Origin: Bacteroidota bacterium
Lineage (GTDB): Bacteria; Bacteroidota; Bacteroidia; B-17B0; Aurantibacillaceae
DNA: 64,000 bases
Direction of reading: 5' to 3'
Assembly: GCA_021155905.1 (NCBI GenBank)
Contig: JAJNBG010000010.1
Location: 62,001-126,000, forward strand
Under the pieces are notes generated by a model, which did no database searches, was not told where the DNA came from, and saw nothing but the letters and a program-made list of their open reading frames with translations. Shown here piece after piece: positions 3,348 to 51,166 of the stretch (within the stretch, counting starts at the first letter, position 1; each line of letters begins with the position of its first letter). The position numbers were made by a program, and so were the translations under genes.

Positions 3348-4100
3348 ATGAAACAAGAAACTAAAAAAATTATTATCTGGACCATCCTTTTTGCAATCGC
3401 CATGGGATTTATGGAAACTGCTGTTGTTGTTTATTTACGTGAGCTGTATTACCCGGATGGTTTTAAATTTCCCTTAACCGTTATTCCCAACAAAGTGGCC
3501 GTCACTGAATTCTGGCGTGAAATCGCCACGATCATTATGCTGGTGGGTACAGGAATCATTGCCGGTAAAACCAAACTGACGCGCTTTGCTTATTTTATTA
3601 TGGCCTTTGCGATATGGGATATTTTTTATTATGTGTTCTTGTATGTGTTAATTGCCTGGCCACAATCTTTACTCACCTGGGACATTTTATTCCTGGTGCC
3701 GGTTCCATGGGTTGGCCCTGTGCTGGCACCCTGCCTCGTTTCCCTGGAAATGATCGTTTTCGCTTACTGCATCATTTATTTCAAAGAAAAAGACAGCCGC
3801 ATAAAAGTTTCGGTGTCCCAATGGTTATTACTTATCAGTGGTGTGCTGGTCATCATCATGTCCTTCACCACCGATTATATCGAACAGGTCTCACAAAGTT
3901 CCGTTGACAATTGGAATATATTTTCCGAATCCCAGTTATTTGAAGAACTGAAAACCTATACGCCAAAAGAATTTTGCTGGTGGCTTTTTTGGGTGGGTGA
4001 TGCCTTGTGTGCCTTGGGAGTTTTGAGTTTTGTAAAAACCTGCGTGAGGGATTGCAGCGGAAATCCTTTTTTGAGGAACGAAAAAAAGAGTGAAGCGTAA
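3348..4100 (+). CDS. Conserved polytopic membrane protein of unknown function
   Basis: A 250-aa protein with about six membrane segments. The first carries a conserved-looking FMETAVVVYLRELYYPDGF block that runs from the membrane into a loop; others are at about 58-76, 80-105, 118-145 and 155-172, with a last one near 208-230 (WWLFWVGDALCALGVLSF). No cofactor or transporter signature was seen. It sits in a row of same-strand membrane genes (34 nt after the previous gene, 42 nt before the DUF4173 gene) and is presumably under the same regulator. Confidence 0.7.
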   Translation: MKQETKKIIIWTILFAIAMGFMETAVVVYLRELYYPDGFKFPLTVIPNKVAVTEFWREIATIIMLVGTGIIAGKTKLTRFAYFIMAFAIWDIFYYVFLYVLIAWPQSLLTWDILFLVPVPWVGPVLAPCLVSLEMIVFAYCIIYFKEKDSRIKVSVSQWLLLISGVLVIIMSFTTDYIEQVSQSSVDNWNIFSESQLFEELKTYTPKEFCWWLFWVGDALCALGVLSFVKTCVRDCSGNPFLRNEKKSEA

Positions 4101-4142
4101 AGCCCGTCCAAAACATCATTTAAAAATATAAAAATACAAACC

Positions 4143-44574: not shown

Positions 44575-44607
44575 TTTGGAAGTATAAAACAAAATAACTT
44601 AGATTTG
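44575..44607 (+). promoter_or_regulatory. Promoter of the SAM-riboswitch / methionine operon
   Basis: TTTG at 44575-44578, 21-nt spacer, TAGATTTG at 44600-44607. Expected transcription start is near 44614, about 27 nt before the first helix of the riboswitch. Confidence 0.65.
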
Positions 44608-44640
44608 CTGCAGAATTAGTTACCTCTTATGTGTGTAATT

Positions 44641-44768
44641 AATTTATTAAGAAGTGGCGAGAGAATAGGCTCTATGACCCACTGGCAACCAACTAAAAGT
44701 CGAGGTAAAATGCGATTGGAAAACCGGTGCCAACTCCTACTCTGATGAAAAACAGGGGCAGATAAATT
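44641..44768 (+). ncRNA. SAM riboswitch (SAM-I/SAM-IV clan)
   Basis: The conserved core of the SAM-I clan is present in order: GAGAATAGGCTC followed by TATGACCC, CTGGCAACC at 44682-44690, and CCGGTGCCAACTCC at 44724-44737. Closing helix P1 is AATTTAT (44641-44647) with ATAAATT (44762-44768), and a P4-like CTCTG/CAGGG hairpin lies near the 3' end. It binds S-adenosylmethionine and reduces expression of methionine genes. No terminator hairpin was seen after it; P1 ends 13 nt before the ATG of a small ORF, which favours control of translation. The exact subtype (SAM-I or SAM-I/IV variant) is not decided. Confidence 0.85.
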
Positions 44769-44781
44769 AAAAACAATAAAA

Positions 44782-44904
44782 ATGAAACACACGACTTCAA
44801 AAACAAAACTATCTACTAGCCTTATTATCTTTTATTCTGCCATGCCATTTTTCATGGTGGCTTGTATGTGGTGCGGCATGCGCCAGTTTGGTTTTTCTTT
44901 TTAG
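44782..44904 (+). CDS. 40-aa Met-rich small ORF between the SAM riboswitch and metX
   Basis: ATG 13 nt after the riboswitch P1 helix, 40 codons, stop TAG. The N-terminus is polar and basic (MKHTTSKTKLSTS); the C-terminal half is hydrophobic (LIIFYSAMPFFMVACMW, then CGMRQFGFSF) and could span a membrane. Met residues fall at 21, 25, 29 and 33, exactly every fourth position, so they line one face of a helix; Cys are at 28 and 31. I do not recognise a family. It could be a SAM-controlled leader peptide whose Met codons sense charged tRNA-Met, or a small membrane protein. metX starts 123 nt further on. Confidence 0.6.
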   Translation: MKHTTSKTKLSTSLIIFYSAMPFFMVACMWCGMRQFGFSF

Positions 44905-45027
44905 ATAATCGAAAAATTAAATCCCTGTCAAAGGCGCAAGTAAATTAATTCGTTTTCAATCAAATCATTTAAAACAAAAACACTAATCACATTCACCATG
45001 TGAGCATGTGGTTAAAAATAAACAAGT

Positions 45028-46062
45028 ATGAATCAAAATACATATATATACAACAAAAGGTTTCAGTTGGAAAGCGGTCTTTCATTGCCCGGATTAGAAA
45101 TTGCTTATCATACTTATGGTGCCTTAAACAGGGATAAGAGTAATGTGATATGGGTTGCCCATGCATTAACTGCTAACAGCGATGTGTTGGATTGGTGGAA
45201 GGGTTTATTCGGTGAAAATGAATTATTTGATCCTGAAGACTATTTTATTGTGTGTGCCAATAATTTGGGGTCCTGTTATGGAACAACCGGTCCCTTGAGT
45301 ATCAATCCTGATACTAATGAACCCTGGTTTAGCTACTTCCCGCAGATTACCATCAGGGATATGGCCAACACGTTACATATATTGAGACAACACCTCGGGA
45401 TAGAAAAAATTCATACACTTATTGGCGGCTCACAAGGGGGGCAAATAGCACAAGAATGGATAATACAAAATTCTGGCATAGCACAAAACCTGATTTTGAT
45501 CGCCACGAATGCACAGCATTCTCCATGGGGCATAGCTTTTAATGAATCTCAGCGTTTGGCCATTAAAGCAGACCGGACCTATTTTTCAAATTCCGTAAAT
45601 GGTGGCGAAAAAGGACTTCAGGCAGCCAGAAGTATTGCTTTATTAAGCTATAGGAACTATCATACTTATAACAGCACTCAAAAAAATACGGATCGGAACG
45701 ATATCAATAACCATGCGGCCTCCTCATATCAGCGCTACCAGGGTGAGAAACTAGTGAAGCGTTTCAATGCGTACTCTTATGTGCGTTTGTCTGAAGCCAT
45801 GGATTCCCATCAGGTGGCAAGAGAACGGGCATATAGTCTTGAAACTGTTTTAAATGAGATCGATATTCCTACATTGGTTATTGGTGTAACATCTGATGTA
45901 CTGTTCCCGTTATGCGAGCAGCAGTTATTGGCAAGGTATATTAAGAACGCTGTTTATGAGGAAATAGATTCGTTTCACGGACATGATGGTTTCCTAATAG
46001 AAACTAAGCAAATAGCAGAACGAATCGATCATTTTTATAAAAAAGCAAAGAAAAAAATCTGA
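45028..46062 (+). CDS. metX: Homoserine O-acetyltransferase
   Basis: A 344-aa alpha/beta hydrolase-fold enzyme that acetylates homoserine using acetyl-CoA, the first committed step of methionine synthesis. Motifs: LPGLEIAYHTYGALN, VWVAHALTANSDVLDWW, NLGSCYGTTGPLSINP, IGGSQGGQIAQEW with the nucleophilic Ser near 135, TSDVLFP (Asp) and SFHGHDGFL (His near 315). Shorter than the ~370-aa proteobacterial form, as usual in Bacteroidota. First enzyme gene of the SAM-controlled operon; hom follows after 26 nt. Some MetX-like enzymes use succinyl-CoA, which sequence alone does not exclude. Confidence 0.92.
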   Translation: MNQNTYIYNKRFQLESGLSLPGLEIAYHTYGALNRDKSNVIWVAHALTANSDVLDWWKGLFGENELFDPEDYFIVCANNLGSCYGTTGPLSINPDTNEPWFSYFPQITIRDMANTLHILRQHLGIEKIHTLIGGSQGGQIAQEWIIQNSGIAQNLILIATNAQHSPWGIAFNESQRLAIKADRTYFSNSVNGGEKGLQAARSIALLSYRNYHTYNSTQKNTDRNDINNHAASSYQRYQGEKLVKRFNAYSYVRLSEAMDSHQVARERAYSLETVLNEIDIPTLVIGVTSDVLFPLCEQQLLARYIKNAVYEEIDSFHGHDGFLIETKQIAERIDHFYKKAKKKI

Positions 46063-46088: not shown

Positions 46089-47339
46089 ATGAGCAAGAAA
46101 TTAAAAATTGGATTATTCGGTTTTGGTTGTGTAGGGCAAGGGCTTTATCACGTATTAAATAACAGCACCGGTTTCAAAGCCGACATTATAAAAATTGCAG
46201 TGAAGGACAAAAACAAAACACGCACCGTTGGGTCGGATCTCATTACCTACGATAAATGGGAAATTCTAAATAATCCGGAAATTGATGTAGTTGTGGAACT
46301 GATCGATGATGCTGAAGAAGCGTTTCATATTGTGAGTGAAGCATTGAGGAGAGGAAAACATGTGGTAACAGCCAATAAAAAATTACTGGCTACACATCTG
46401 GAGGAACTGTATTGTTTACAAAAGGAGAATAATGTATCATTATTATATGAAGCTTCGGCATGCGGAAGTATTCCTATCATACGTTCCCTGGAAGAATATT
46501 TTGATAATGAAGAACTGGAGAAAGTATCAGGAATTTTTAACGGAACCAGTAATTATATTTTATCGAAAACAATTAATGAGAAATTGTCCTATGGGGAGGC
46601 TTTAAAACAGGCTCAGGAGAAGGGTTTCGCGGAAACTGATCCGACCAATGATGTTGAAGGATTTGACCCTAAATTCAAAGCAATCATTATCGCGTTACAT
46701 GCTTTTGGATTGATTATTAAACCGGAGAATGTGCTGAATATTGGTATCACTACACTCGACGAACATGATATCAGATATGCTTCTGAAAAAGGTTATAAAA
46801 TTAAACTGACGCCTGTTATACAGCGTCTGGAGGGTAATCAGGTGAGCGTATTTGTGGCTCCCCGTTTTATTAAAGAGCAGGATCAATTGTTCAATGTGGA
46901 AAATGAATTTAATGGTGTAGTTGTGGAAGGCAAATTTTCAGGAGAACAGTTCCTGCAGGGGCGGGGTGCGGGGAGTTTGCCAACAGGTGCGGCGGTGTTA
47001 TCAGATATTTCGGCTTTATCGCATGGATACAGGTATGAATTTAAAAAATACCTTCAAAAAAATGCGCCGGTTTTTACCAATGATGTGCTGGTTCATTTAT
47101 ATATTAGATATAATAGAGAAGAGGATCTGAACCATTTATTTTTTGATGAGGTCAATGAAAAGTATACAGGAAGCACTTACCATTACATTGTCGGTAAGAT
47201 TAACCTCAAAAAAATAATTGAAGCAAGGGAATTTATATTGACACATAATTTATTTATTGCCTTGGTTGATGAAAAAGTAACACTGGACAGAACTGTGAAT
47301 AATAAAGAAATTGTGGAAGAACTGCAAATGGTTGGGTAG
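46089..47339 (+). CDS. hom: Homoserine dehydrogenase
   Basis: A 416-aa enzyme that reduces aspartate semialdehyde to homoserine. The NAD(P)-binding fold opens with IGLFGFGCVGQGLYHVL; then VTANKKLLATH, YEASACGSIPIIRSLEEYF, SGIFNGTSNYIL, and GFAETDPTNDVEGFDPKFKAIIIA with the catalytic Asp/Lys. The C-terminal ~80 residues may be a regulatory tail, without the separate aspartokinase domain found in ThrA. Following metX, it supplies that enzyme's substrate. Confidence 0.93.
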   Translation: MSKKLKIGLFGFGCVGQGLYHVLNNSTGFKADIIKIAVKDKNKTRTVGSDLITYDKWEILNNPEIDVVVELIDDAEEAFHIVSEALRRGKHVVTANKKLLATHLEELYCLQKENNVSLLYEASACGSIPIIRSLEEYFDNEELEKVSGIFNGTSNYILSKTINEKLSYGEALKQAQEKGFAETDPTNDVEGFDPKFKAIIIALHAFGLIIKPENVLNIGITTLDEHDIRYASEKGYKIKLTPVIQRLEGNQVSVFVAPRFIKEQDQLFNVENEFNGVVVEGKFSGEQFLQGRGAGSLPTGAAVLSDISALSHGYRYEFKKYLQKNAPVFTNDVLVHLYIRYNREEDLNHLFFDEVNEKYTGSTYHYIVGKINLKKIIEAREFILTHNLFIALVDEKVTLDRTVNNKEIVEELQMVG

Positions 47340-47414: not shown

Positions 47415-47840
47415 ATGGCTATGCGTATAAAATTGAAAAGAATCGATGCTGATTTTAATTTTGAAGCGGTAAATTTAGATGGGAACACTATTTCAATAGA
47501 CGCAGCTCCTGCCATCGGAGGACACAATAAAGGAATGAGGCCCATGCAATTATTGTTAGCCGCAATAGGTGGTTGTAGCGCGATGGATATCATTTCGATA
47601 TTAAGAAAACAAAAACAGGAGATTGATTCCTTCGAAATTGAAGTGCATGGAAAACGTGAAGAAACGGGCACCAAGGGATATTCTTTATTTCAAACGATAG
47701 AAGTTCACTATATTTTAAAAGGAAAAGTGAAAAAGGATAAAGCTGAACGGGCTGTGAAATTATCTATGGAAAAATATTGTTCAGTCACCAAAATCCTGGA
47801 ACCGACAGCAAAAATTACATATAACGTGAGTGTGAATTAA
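47415..47840 (+). CDS. OsmC family protein
   Basis: A 141-aa protein of the OsmC/Ohr superfamily. RPMQLLLAAIGGCSAMDIISILRKQK holds the peroxidatic Cys54; the resolving Cys122 is in MEKYCSVTKILEPTAKI. The family reduces organic or lipid hydroperoxides; some members have other thiol roles. It lies inside the methionine/sulfate operon, 5 nt before metZ, which suggests a link to sulfur or thiol metabolism. A -7-like TATATTTG at 47398-47405 may give an internal, nearly leaderless promoter. Confidence 0.9.
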   Translation: MAMRIKLKRIDADFNFEAVNLDGNTISIDAAPAIGGHNKGMRPMQLLLAAIGGCSAMDIISILRKQKQEIDSFEIEVHGKREETGTKGYSLFQTIEVHYILKGKVKKDKAERAVKLSMEKYCSVTKILEPTAKITYNVSVN

Positions 47841-47845
47841 TTAAA

Positions 47846-49018
47846 ATGATGAAAGATAAACAGTTTGAAACAAGAGCTATCAGGGCGCAGCTGGAACGCA
47901 CCGACTACAACGAGCATTCGTCTCCTTTGTTTCTGACTTCCAGTTTTGTATTTGATTCGGCAGAAGAAATGCGTGCGGCATTTAACGACGAATCGGATGA
48001 TTATATTTACTCCCGATACATTAATCCAAACACCAATGAATTTATCAATAAGGTGTGTTTGCTGGAAGGAGCGGAAGCCGGTTTTGCAACGGCTTCAGGG
48101 ATGGCAGCCATTTATACTACATTTATGGCCTTGCTAAAGTCTGGAGATCATGTTATTTCCTGCTCATCTGTTTTTGGCGCCACGCACGCTATTTTTACCA
48201 GGTATTTTCCTAAATGGAATATGAGTCATTCGTACTTCCATACCAACCATGTGGAAGAAATCGAACAACTTATTAAACCGGAAACCAGATTTATTTACCT
48301 GGAGACTCCTACTAACCCTGCCATAGAGTTGATCGACCTGGAACTGGTCGCCGGTATTGCTAAAAAGTACCACATTTTATTGATCGTTGATAATTGTTTT
48401 GCTACACCCTATTTACAGCAACCTGTGAAGTTTGGAGCGGATCTGGTGATTCATTCTGCTACTAAATACATGGATGGGCAAGGCCGGGTACTCGGTGGAG
48501 TAGTTGTTGGAAAGAAAGAATTAATAAATGAAATCTATTTATTTGGAAGATTAACCGGGCCATCTATGAGTCCGTTTAATGCCTGGGTCTTAAGTAAAAG
48601 TTTAGAAACTCTTGCATTGCGAATGGACAGGCATTGTGAAAATGCCTTGTTTGTTGCTCAGAAACTGGAGGGACATCATCAACTCGAAAACGTATCCTAT
48701 CCTTTTTTAAAGTCGCATCCAAATTATGAAATCGCTAAAAAACAAATGAGCGCAGGTGGCGGTATTCTTACCGTGACTTTAAAGGGCGGTTACGAGGCCG
48801 CAAAAAAATTCCTGGATAACTTACAAATGATAAAAATATCTCCTAACTTAGGTGATGCAAGAAGTATTGTGACGCATCCTGCTTCAAGTACGCATTGTAA
48901 ACTAAGTGAACAGGAGCGTTTAGCTGTTGGGATAAAACCTGGTTTAATACGTATATCGGTTGGCCTGGAAAATAGGGAAGATATTTTAAATGATTTGTTA
49001 CAAGCACTGAATGGGTAA
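47846..49018 (+). CDS. metZ: O-acetyl/succinyl-homoserine sulfhydrylase (trans-sulfuration PLP enzyme)
   Basis: A 390-aa Cys/Met-metabolism PLP enzyme. Motifs: ETRAIRAQLERTDYNEHSSPLFLTSSFVF, YSRYINPNTNEF, ASGMAAIYTTF, YLETPTNPAIELID, LIVDNCFATPYLQQP, and HSATKYMDGQGRVLGG with the PLP Lys. The family is best matched to MetZ, which joins sulfide to the activated homoserine made by MetX to give homocysteine. Its 3' end overlaps cysD by 8 nt. Confidence 0.88.
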   Translation: MMKDKQFETRAIRAQLERTDYNEHSSPLFLTSSFVFDSAEEMRAAFNDESDDYIYSRYINPNTNEFINKVCLLEGAEAGFATASGMAAIYTTFMALLKSGDHVISCSSVFGATHAIFTRYFPKWNMSHSYFHTNHVEEIEQLIKPETRFIYLETPTNPAIELIDLELVAGIAKKYHILLIVDNCFATPYLQQPVKFGADLVIHSATKYMDGQGRVLGGVVVGKKELINEIYLFGRLTGPSMSPFNAWVLSKSLETLALRMDRHCENALFVAQKLEGHHQLENVSYPFLKSHPNYEIAKKQMSAGGGILTVTLKGGYEAAKKFLDNLQMIKISPNLGDARSIVTHPASSTHCKLSEQERLAVGIKPGLIRISVGLENREDILNDLLQALNG

Positions 49019-49919
49019 GTCACTTGATTATTTAGATGAATTGGAATCAGAAGCCATTTACATTCTGAGAGAGGTGGCCGGACAATTTGAAAGGCCTGCT
49101 CTTTTATTTAGTGGCGGGAAAGACAGTATCTGTTTGGTTCATTTGGCTTTAAAAGCTTTCAGGCCGGGAAAATTCCCTTTTCCATTAGTGCATATTGATA
49201 CCGGTCATAATTTTCCGGAGACTTTAATTTTTAGAGATTATTTGGTTAAGAACATCAATGAGCAATTAATTGTTCGTAACGTGGCGGATACGATTCAGAA
49301 AAAACAATTACTGGATGCCAAAGGAAAATTTCCAACACGTAACGCACTGCAAACTTTTACGTTACTGGACATGATTGAAGAGTTTGAGTTTGATGCCTGC
49401 ATTGGCGGGGCCAGGCGTGATGAGGAAAAGGCCCGTGCCAAAGAGCGTGTTTTTTCTGTAAGGGACGAGTTCGGACAGTGGGATCCTAAAAAGCAACGGC
49501 CTGAATTGTGGAATATATATAACGGCAAGATTAACAAAGGAGAAAATGTTCGGGTCTTCCCAATCAGTAACTGGACGGAGCTGGATGTCTGGAATTATAT
49601 TAAACGTGAGAAGATTGAATTGCCTTCCATTTATTTTGCACATGAACGGGAATGCATTGTAACCGTGAGCGGACAGTTAATGAATACGAATGAATTTGTG
49701 ACGAGGGATGAAAAAGATGTGGTTGTAAACAAAATGGTCAGGTACAGAACAGTGGGTGATATGACATGTACATCAGCTATTGAAAGCACTGCTACTACTG
49801 TTGATGCGATTATCAACGAACTACTGGAAACAAATATTAGTGAGCGAGGGGCAACCAGGATGGATGACAGAATAAGTGAGGCAGCCATGGAAGACAGAAA
49901 AAAGAGCGGATATTTTTAA
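49011..49919 (+). CDS. cysD: Sulfate adenylyltransferase subunit 2 (CysD)
   Basis: A 302-aa ATP-pyrophosphatase-like enzyme: LLFSGGKDSICLVHLALKAF is the PP-loop; HIDTGHNFPETLIFRDYLV, IGGARRDEEKARAKERVFSVRDEFGQWDPK and VFPISNWTELDVWNYI follow. With CysN it makes APS from sulfate and ATP. The usual length. Start inside the end of metZ, next gene 2 nt on. No adjacent cysC or cysH was seen. Confidence 0.95.
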   Translation: MGKSLDYLDELESEAIYILREVAGQFERPALLFSGGKDSICLVHLALKAFRPGKFPFPLVHIDTGHNFPETLIFRDYLVKNINEQLIVRNVADTIQKKQLLDAKGKFPTRNALQTFTLLDMIEEFEFDACIGGARRDEEKARAKERVFSVRDEFGQWDPKKQRPELWNIYNGKINKGENVRVFPISNWTELDVWNYIKREKIELPSIYFAHERECIVTVSGQLMNTNEFVTRDEKDVVVNKMVRYRTVGDMTCTSAIESTATTVDAIINELLETNISERGATRMDDRISEAAMEDRKKSGYF

Positions 49920-49921
49920 AG

Positions 49922-51166
49922 ATGAATTTATTACGATTTTTTACAGCGGGTAATGTTGATGATGGTAAAAGTACCCTGATCGGTCGTTTGCTTTTTGATA
50001 GCCAGGCAATCTCGACGGACATTATTGAAACGCTCACCCGTCAAAGCAAAAGTAAAACTGGCAATACCGAAATTGATCTGGCCCTTTTAACGGATGGATT
50101 GAGAGCGGAACGGGAACAGGGCATTACCATCGACGTGGCATATAAATATTTTACGACGGCCAAACGTAAATTTATTATTGCTGATACTCCGGGCCATAGT
50201 CAATATACCCGGAATATGTTTACAGGTGCTTCCAACTCAGACCTCGCGATTATACTGATTGATGCACGTCATGGTGTGACCGAACAAACAAAACGGCATA
50301 CGATTATCTCTTCCATTCTAAGGATTCCGCATATTTTGGTCTGCATTAACAAAATGGACCTGGTGAACTATTCAGAAGAGGATTTCAAAAAAATTGAACG
50401 TGAATATTTGATGTTTGCAAAACAGCTGGATCTAAAGGATATTGTTTTTATACCGGTGAGTGCTTTGGAAGGCGATAACGTTGTTGCTTCTTCTCAGAAA
50501 ATGGTCTGGTATCATGGAAAAACATTACTTGATATATTGGAGACATTGGAAGTGAAAGAATCAGTAGAAAAAGAAAATGCCCGTTTTCAGGTTCAATATG
50601 TGATTCGTCCACAAGCAGATAATTTGCATGATTACAGGGGCTTTGCCGGAAAAGTCCTGAGTGGTGTTTATAAAAAAGGCCAGAGGGTGCTTGTTTTACC
50701 ATCTGCGGTGGAAACTACGATTGATAAAATAGAAATAAACCGTGAAGAAGTTAATGAAGCAGGAGCCAACAGGTCTGTTGTTTTCCACTTAACGGATGAT
50801 GTGGATGTGAGCAGGGGTAATTCAATCGTGCCCCTGGAGGAACTACCGAGTAACGCGAATGAAATAACTGCTACCATTTGTTGGATGGATAATACAGACT
50901 ACATTCCCGGCCAAAAAATACTCTTACAGCAAAATTCCTTTCGTACAAAAGCTGTTATTAAAGAAGTGATTAGTAAATTAGATATCCACTCGTATAAGCA
51001 TATTGAAAACGACAGCTCAATGAAATTAAATGATCTTTGCAAGGTGTTGATTAAAACAGCGGAGCTTGTTAGTTTTGATAGTTTCGCCGATAACAGAAAC
51101 ACGGGCGCATTTATTTTAATTAATGAGAATACTAACAATACGATCGCCGCAGGTACCATAGATTAG
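49922..51166 (+). CDS. cysN: Sulfate adenylyltransferase subunit 1 (CysN), GTPase
   Basis: A 414-aa EF-Tu-like GTPase that drives APS formation by CysD. G-motifs: FFTAGNVDDGKSTLIGRLL (G1, with GNVDDGKST), EQGITIDVAYKYF (G2), IADTPGHSQYTRNMFTGAS (G3), CINKMDL (G4). The beta-barrel domains follow. Not fused to CysC, so APS kinase, if used, is elsewhere. Last gene of the operon. Confidence 0.95.
   Translation: MNLLRFFTAGNVDDGKSTLIGRLLFDSQAISTDIIETLTRQSKSKTGNTEIDLALLTDGLRAEREQGITIDVAYKYFTTAKRKFIIADTPGHSQYTRNMFTGASNSDLAIILIDARHGVTEQTKRHTIISSILRIPHILVCINKMDLVNYSEEDFKKIEREYLMFAKQLDLKDIVFIPVSALEGDNVVASSQKMVWYHGKTLLDILETLEVKESVEKENARFQVQYVIRPQADNLHDYRGFAGKVLSGVYKKGQRVLVLPSAVETTIDKIEINREEVNEAGANRSVVFHLTDDVDVSRGNSIVPLEELPSNANEITATICWMDNTDYIPGQKILLQQNSFRTKAVIKEVISKLDIHSYKHIENDSSMKLNDLCKVLIKTAELVSFDSFADNRNTGAFILINENTNNTIAAGTID

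Follow-up and report, generated by a model that had tools for sequence, protein, structure and literature searches.

In mycobacteria, runs of cysteine codons were predicted in the leader ORFs of cys operons in 2005, without conserved terminators in the accessible part of that report (PMC1262725), and these poly-Cys leaders have since been reported to be cysteine-responsive attenuators (Canestrari 2020, as cited in excerpts of PMC13236596, PMC9094748 and PMC9031893). The leader ORFs described here resemble those of mycobacteria, as the excerpts present them, in being short, in having a Cys-codon run close to the stop codon and in standing ahead of sulfur genes. They differ in that they occur in Bacteroidota, in that Met residues flank the Cys run and in that a U-tract often lies past the stop codon. 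The mycobacterial poly-Cys leaders that were tested are leaderless and the excerpts mention no aptamer, whereas here a SAM-I aptamer precedes the leader. In the window (the whole stretch of 64,000 nucleotides of Bacteroidota DNA that was analysed), the ATG of the leader ORF lies 13 nt past the end of a 128-nt aptamer, and its start is not a leaderless one if the aptamer is co-transcribed.

A further related system is the uORFC-8-2 motif upstream of cysS in Rhodobacterales, for which the accessible text proposes that stalling at Cys codons results in read-through (PMC8632094). As in the leaders described here, that motif has a stem which contains Cys codons and a U run at its end, but it has two Cys codons, precedes a tRNA-synthetase gene and comes with no mention of a riboswitch in the portion of the paper available. 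The Salmonella mgtCBR leader with its tandem attenuators is comparable in that a single leader contains two short ORFs which control transcription of the operon, according to the available portion of PMC3641672. Closer in phylogeny, leader-peptide attenuation is mentioned in general terms for a flavobacterium in the accessible part of PMC9723704, and leader-like small ORFs are described for Bacteroides thetaiotaomicron in that of PMC7366714. The aptamer itself belongs to the SAM-I class (RF00162), as do those at the other SAM sites of the family. A SAM-I riboswitch of the familiar kind is followed by an intrinsic terminator, as seen at 25 of 42 non-leader sites of the family, whereas at the sites considered here a leader ORF, which we read as translated, replaces the terminator. 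The mgtCBR leader presumably has neither a SAM aptamer nor a poly-Cys ORF and responds to other signals. Searches of open-access full text turned up no description of a SAM riboswitch followed by a poly-Cys leader. Both kinds of component are already known, and it is their combination that is apparently unreported in the open-access literature searched.

The SAM-I aptamer and the operon downstream of it

The features of the locus are listed in Table 1. The segment assigned to the aptamer is a predicted SAM-I riboswitch with a score of 66.2 bits (E 3.2e-13) against the RF00162 gathering cut-off of 44.4, a covariance-model check that bears out the original prediction of a SAM-I-clan aptamer at this place. 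The 40-aa ATG ORF was correctly described as following the aptamer directly, and metX indeed starts 123 nt past the stop codon of the ORF. The aptamer thereby precedes a set of methionine and sulfur genes in the order metX, homoserine dehydrogenase, osmC, sulfhydrylase-like enzyme, cysD and cysN. The score of metX is below the curated TIGR01392 cut-off of 500 bits, and that of the sulfhydrylase-like enzyme is just short of the NF006003 cut-off of 522. Dual control by SAM and cysteine fits the gene set of this operon. The host genome has one further RF00162 match, which adjoins a gene that reads as metH-like. Elsewhere in the window, positions 4033-4113 of the + strand match the Flavo-1 RNA (RF01705, 49.5 bits).

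Table 1. Features of the window from the SAM-I aptamer to cysN
Feature	Position	Strand	Evidence
Predicted SAM-I (S-box) riboswitch aptamer	44641..44768	+	RF00162 covariance model
Putative leader-peptide ORF, 40 aa, degenerate member of the poly-Cys leader family	44782..44904	+	ORF call; 48 same-place relatives
Predicted hairpin in 3' end of ORF (TGGC..GTATGT / GCATGC..GCCA)	44858..44885	+	fold; shorter alternative 44869-44885
U-rich tract 3' of hairpin, GTTTGGTTTTTCTTTTTAG	44886..44904	+	sequence
Shortened spacer, retains part of conserved post-ORF segment CGAAAAATTAAAT	44905..45027	+	alignment A3
metX, homoserine O-acetyltransferase, first gene after leader	45028..46062	+	TIGR01392, E 5.8e-102, 341 bits
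Homoserine dehydrogenase	46089..47339	+	NF004976, 340 bits (above cut-off 205); PF00742
OsmC family protein	47415..47840	+	PF02566
Homoserine-ester sulfhydrylase-like Cys/Met PLP enzyme	47846..49018	+	NF006003 best, 513.6 bits; PF01053
cysD, sulfate adenylyltransferase small subunit	49011..49919	+	TIGR02039, 410.8 bits (above cut-off 396.6)
cysN, sulfate adenylyltransferase large subunit	49922..51166	+	TIGR02034, 517 bits (above cut-off 336)

Leader ORFs at SAM sites of the family

A search of 87 genomes of the family with RF00162, under filtering strict enough to miss some weak matches, gave 130 matches in 77 genomes. The sites were inspected by script (90 loci and the window, then 38 more) except for the other match of the host, which was inspected by eye. 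Judged by the next large ORF, 52 of the 130 sites precede metX or metY and 57 of the other 78 read as metH-like, labels that at the sites of relatives rest on short motifs in that ORF or on reading. Besides the window there are 51 metX/metY sites, and 48 of these have a Cys-ending leader ORF downstream of the aptamer; the 78 remaining SAM sites have none, although contig ends truncate two of them (L291 and L296). A leader was called when at least 3 of the last 12 residues were Cys; the window ORF was exempted from this rule and is counted as the 49th leader. The family relatives do not count as independent observations. Because related genomes keep an ORF at the matching position, the original idea that a leader peptide acts in series with the riboswitch is supported and withstands the comparative half of the refutation test set for it.

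The leaders of the relatives are ATG ORFs of 29-54 codons that start 3-15 nt past the aptamer and have an end like MACMCCCCCMC-stop. The spacing between aptamer and ATG is 11-15 nt in 43 of the 49 leaders, and so close and steady a distance suggests control of leader translation. Three metX sites have no called leader; at one of these (G100) the sequence is N-masked after a leader-like start, and the other two (G073 and G074) have plain terminators. An ORF of 28-60 codons with no Cys run stands close after the aptamer at two non-leader sites (G025 L041 and G064 L042). The DNA pattern for MCCC-x-MC-stop has 28 matches in 28 of the 87 family genomes, 27 of which follow a SAM aptamer by their coordinates, and the reversed control of these genomes has none. 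Midway through the peptide, two leaders (L097 of G026 and L079 of G103) have the in-frame insertion GDVxIAIASxASR, which the close relative G032 lacks and which is perhaps a small mobile repeat. At two other sites (L284 and L295), long SAM aptamers are followed by a gene which starts like MNKENQNIEYKEAWHDECLKWVAGFCNANGGKIYIG and is not metH, an unusual target for a SAM switch.

In most relatives a second ORF, of about 75 aa, separates the leader from metX/metY: a motif filter picks it out in 40 of the 48, and inspection by eye adds a 41st. It has the conserved motif NLIG...QRGG...RLVSDVNIL...N (L265-L269 and others, e.g. G017:C198:8174-8407). Searching 60 related genomes for the second ORF gave 18 strong matches, all beside a leader by coordinates, and two weak ones; one match, with an E value of 1.2e-8, is in another family (G047). 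The whole genome from which the window comes gave no match to it. Neither the leader nor the second ORF has a convincing match in Pfam or NCBIfam (best E 0.016), which agrees with the original statement that no family has been described for the 40-aa ORF. The alignments used here cover 39 of the 49 leaders (A1), 21 of the 40 second ORFs (A2), and 19 of the 49 together with the window (A3).

The copy of the leader in the window departs from this pattern. Its residues had been listed correctly (Met at 21, 25, 29 and 33, Cys at 28 and 31), and the Met at every fourth residue that drew attention to the ORF is present, but this spacing is not what the relatives conserve, as the Cys run dominates there. 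Met 25, 29 and 33 align with Met residues of the relatives and Met 21 has no counterpart. In the leader alignment the C-terminus FFMVACMWCGM is matched with FFMMACMCCCCCMC of the congeners, as is the leader segment FFMVACMWCGMRQFGFSF. There is no Cys run near the stop codon, Cys being found only at 28 and 31 of the 40 residues. On our reading, Arg has replaced the final Cys and a Gln codon stands in place of the stop codon, which extends the frame by six codons. The spacer downstream has no counterpart of the second ORF found in most relatives. Because its Cys run is reduced, its stop codon is lost and the second ORF is missing, the copy looks like a worn-down, degenerate version of the leader. 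It keeps a hairpin and a U-rich tract despite the loss of the Cys run and stop codon. The last 54 nt of the ORF plus 12 nt fold with -15.7 kcal/mol at the same place as the hairpin of the relatives, and a terminator-like scan under a looser rule matches 44869-44885; the single-sequence fold of the whole window leader is no stabler than shuffles (z -0.51). The cysteine input has probably been lost or weakened in this copy because the Cys run is largely gone, with the aptamer and the terminator-like hairpin kept. The ORF of the window may now be dead. A search of 60 related genomes with the 40-aa peptide returned mostly noise except for the congeners (the context of 11 matches was inspected), and a search of the host genome for another Cys run gave 14 matches, mostly simple repeats, versus 12 in the reversed control.

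A putative attenuator and its alternatives

Terminators occur within 115 nt of the aptamer at 25 of 42 non-leader sites versus 3 of 49 leader sites; of those three, one coincides with the leader hairpin, another overlaps the Cys run and the third is that of the window. Given how rare terminators are at leader sites, a different mode of action is likely for the aptamer there. A stricter scan, which spanned the leader, the ORF and a further 560 nt, detected perfect-stem terminators at 5 of the 49 sites, one of which (G075) is the leader hairpin, under a rule that allowed no bulges, although the leader hairpin is often bulged. Runs of T are frequent past the leader stop codon. Within the first 16 nt, 32 of the 48 relatives have a run of at least 4 (5.8 expected from shuffles) and 21 a run of at least 5 (1.8 expected); in the subsequent 16-nt steps T-runs are found in 17, 2, 13 and 7 of the 48. 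In folds, the Met-Cys codons that flank the Cys run of the relatives can pair. Pairing of the Met-Cys-stop codons is possible in 34 of 49 leaders versus 31.2 expected under synonymous shuffling, a nearly null result for a pairing that is largely forced by the codons, and the excess of leader fold energy over synonymous shuffles is modest (mean z -0.98, n=49, with 10 below -1.65). RNAalifold predicts 14 pairs on alignment A3, none of which is the leader hairpin, and no antiterminator pairing was found in single-sequence folds and one consensus fold.

The ORF probably belongs to a conserved poly-Cys leader family that is joined to a SAM-I riboswitch before Bacteroidota metX/metY operons and works as an attenuator. 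The position of the leader, its conservation, its coding for Cys, the sequence of the hairpin and U-tract and the gene context are all seen directly. As to how such a leader would operate, we infer that SAM blocks the leader start, that ribosomes stall and that transcription terminates. SAM-bound P1 would hinder initiation at the leader ORF, because the aptamer mostly ends 11-15 nt before the ATG and is usually without a terminator of its own within 115 nt. The Cys and Met codons of the leader, together with bases past the stop codon, would form a putative attenuator hairpin, after which a U-tract follows in most relatives. When SAM is low and charged tRNA-Cys is scarce, ribosomes would stall on the Cys codons and mask this hairpin, allowing transcription to reach metX and the sulfate-assimilation genes. 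When SAM is high the leader would go untranslated, and when Cys is plentiful the ribosome would finish the leader and leave; in either case the hairpin would form and transcription would stop.

Alternatively, the poly-Cys leader could act through translational attenuation or Rho-dependent termination, with stalling refolding the spacer and freeing the start of the next gene, a mode of action that we regard as plausible though somewhat doubtful. It would be consistent with the small number of textbook terminators at leader sites (3 of 49 within 115 nt, and 5 of 49 over the longer span under the stricter rule) and with the further hairpin-like segments that can be read in the post-ORF spacer. 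Mycobacterial poly-Cys leaders are likewise without conserved terminators in the accessible part of PMC1262725, and the genes for cysteine in mycobacteria are described as being under translation attenuation in the excerpt of PMC13236596. The T-runs enriched just past the leader stop codon, however, are a feature that a translation-only mechanism does not need.

The choice of cysteine over methionine as the signal rests on the composition of the leader end. In the 48 relatives, Cys makes up 312 of the 576 residues in the last 12 positions versus 8 of the 1350 residues upstream, and at least 5 of the last 12 residues are Cys in 47 relatives, the remaining one having 3; leaders and columns were selected for Cys, which biases the data toward high Cys counts and low pN, although only 3 of the 51 sites failed the rule. 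Codons at the last nine positions include TGC 155 times, TGT 132 times and TGG 8 times. With 21 independent pairs, taken after L097 (a near-copy of L096) had been dropped from the 49 leaders, pN/pS is 0.06 at these Cys-selected columns versus 0.66 elsewhere in the leader. All three frames were checked because a TGY run reads as Leu in the third frame; a reading of at least 20 codons that starts with ATG precedes the run in the Cys frame of 49 of 49 leaders (by construction), in frame 2 of two and in frame 3 of none.

The original prediction had charged tRNA-Met as the second signal, placing two methionine signals in series. The leader ends do contain 132 Met residues in the last 12 positions of the 48 relatives; in 42 of these leaders a Met immediately precedes the Cys run, and 40 finish with Met-Cys or something close to it. 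Sensing of tRNA-Met is nevertheless unlikely given that Cys outnumbers Met 312 to 132, the ground on which Met was rejected as the main signal, and given that pure Cys runs, such as MRMCCCCCCCCC, form the end of certain other poly-Cys leaders in the phylum. Charged tRNA-Cys is more likely to be the signal because Cys exceeds Met in number and the Cys columns change mostly synonymously, and Met would be at most a helper. Judged from the sequences, the most suitable reading of the ORF is a leader peptide that senses cysteine and is coupled to a SAM riboswitch, rather than one that counts methionine.

It had also been suggested that the ORF encodes a small SAM-controlled membrane protein. A functional product of this kind, whether in the membrane or binding metal, is very unlikely because the peptide varies outside its Cys-rich columns (pN/pS 0.66) and ranges in length from 29 to 54 residues; the Cys-rich end could bind metal and the window copy has a hydrophobic stretch, but the ORF keeps a strict position behind the aptamer, and the candidate was rejected for its variable body and its want of a convincing match in Pfam or NCBIfam. 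That the ORF overlies an RNA expression platform by chance is highly improbable and was rejected for the family, since the window copy taken alone is unremarkable and overlaps the hairpin but the conservation of the family (48 of 51 versus 0 of 78 sites), the pN/pS of 0.06 and the frame counts contradict it.

Occurrence in the phylum and significance

Across 84,980 species genomes, the pattern MCCCC-x-MC-stop matched 37 times, at loci that overlap the 87 family genomes and are not independent. A SAM aptamer is present at 29 of these, 25 of them recognised by core motif and a further 4 by covariance model; 21 of the 37 matches were run against the covariance model, and 14 of these gave an aptamer. 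Of the remainder, seven have no aptamer by covariance model, one of them being out of frame, and one locus begins at the match. By reading, the next gene is metX or metY at 28 matches and another gene at three, with no large ORF in view at six. The same layout, with a spacing of 7-10 nt, is found in Mucilaginibacter rivuli (L254) and in MAGs of Crocinitomicaceae (L244), Flavobacteriales (L227) and Bacteroidales (L232).

In 296 genomes drawn from the phylum, the pattern MCCC-x-MC-stop had no match, and the looser pattern MCCCC had 39 matches in 37 genomes versus one in the reversed control. Loci were inspected for 30 of the 39 matches, with an RNA-family scan of 20 of them. Three loci of another family (L200-L202) have the order SAM, leader and metY, with a spacing of 7-9 and with aptamers confirmed by the RNA-family scan. 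A different arrangement occurs at L137 (1500-1950, the same locus as L194), where a SAM aptamer with its own GC-rich terminator is followed by a separate poly-Cys ORF and then metY. Poly-Cys ORFs without SAM before other genes are also among the MCCCC contexts. The combination of SAM and poly-Cys is scattered in the phylum and not general, because L137 was the only one of 70 printed SAM loci of other families with a Cys run among its listed ORFs.

Two groups of poly-Cys ORFs were observed apart from metX and metY. At L196-L199 (f27 g37), poly-Cys ORFs such as MRMCCCCCCCCC-stop lie 52-53 nt before a 268-aa gene, which we take from its appearance to be a phytanoyl-CoA dioxygenase, and no SAM aptamer was found in those four loci. 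At L203, L205, L206 and L209-L217 (f38 g78), poly-Cys ORFs of mostly about 30 aa stand a short way upstream of a gene, mostly of about 150 aa, whose product looks like a membrane protein. No SAM aptamer was found in the five of these f38 g78 loci that were scanned, and their ORFs are perhaps another cysteine attenuator.

For the leaders joined to a SAM-I aptamer, a broader proposal, which we put forward tentatively and rate as slightly less likely than not, is that a translated sensor serves as the expression platform of the riboswitch. SAM would gate translation of the leader and charged tRNA-Cys would gate progress of the ribosome, so that an attenuator built from codons of the leader itself would form a two-input gate, in a design that recurs in several families of Bacteroidota. 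The tandem of separate sensors at L137/L194 hints at how the SAM and Cys units were combined.

If the proposed mechanism is true, it would mean that a single RNA combines a metabolite riboswitch with ribosome-mediated attenuation, and it would explain the missing terminator at the metX/metY SAM sites as compared with many other SAM sites of the family. The leader also supplies a peptide family for which there is no Pfam or NCBIfam model. Sulfur metabolism would receive a single decision from its end product, SAM, and an intermediate, cysteine, and cultured and uncultured Bacteroidota alike would have a defined cysteine sensor.
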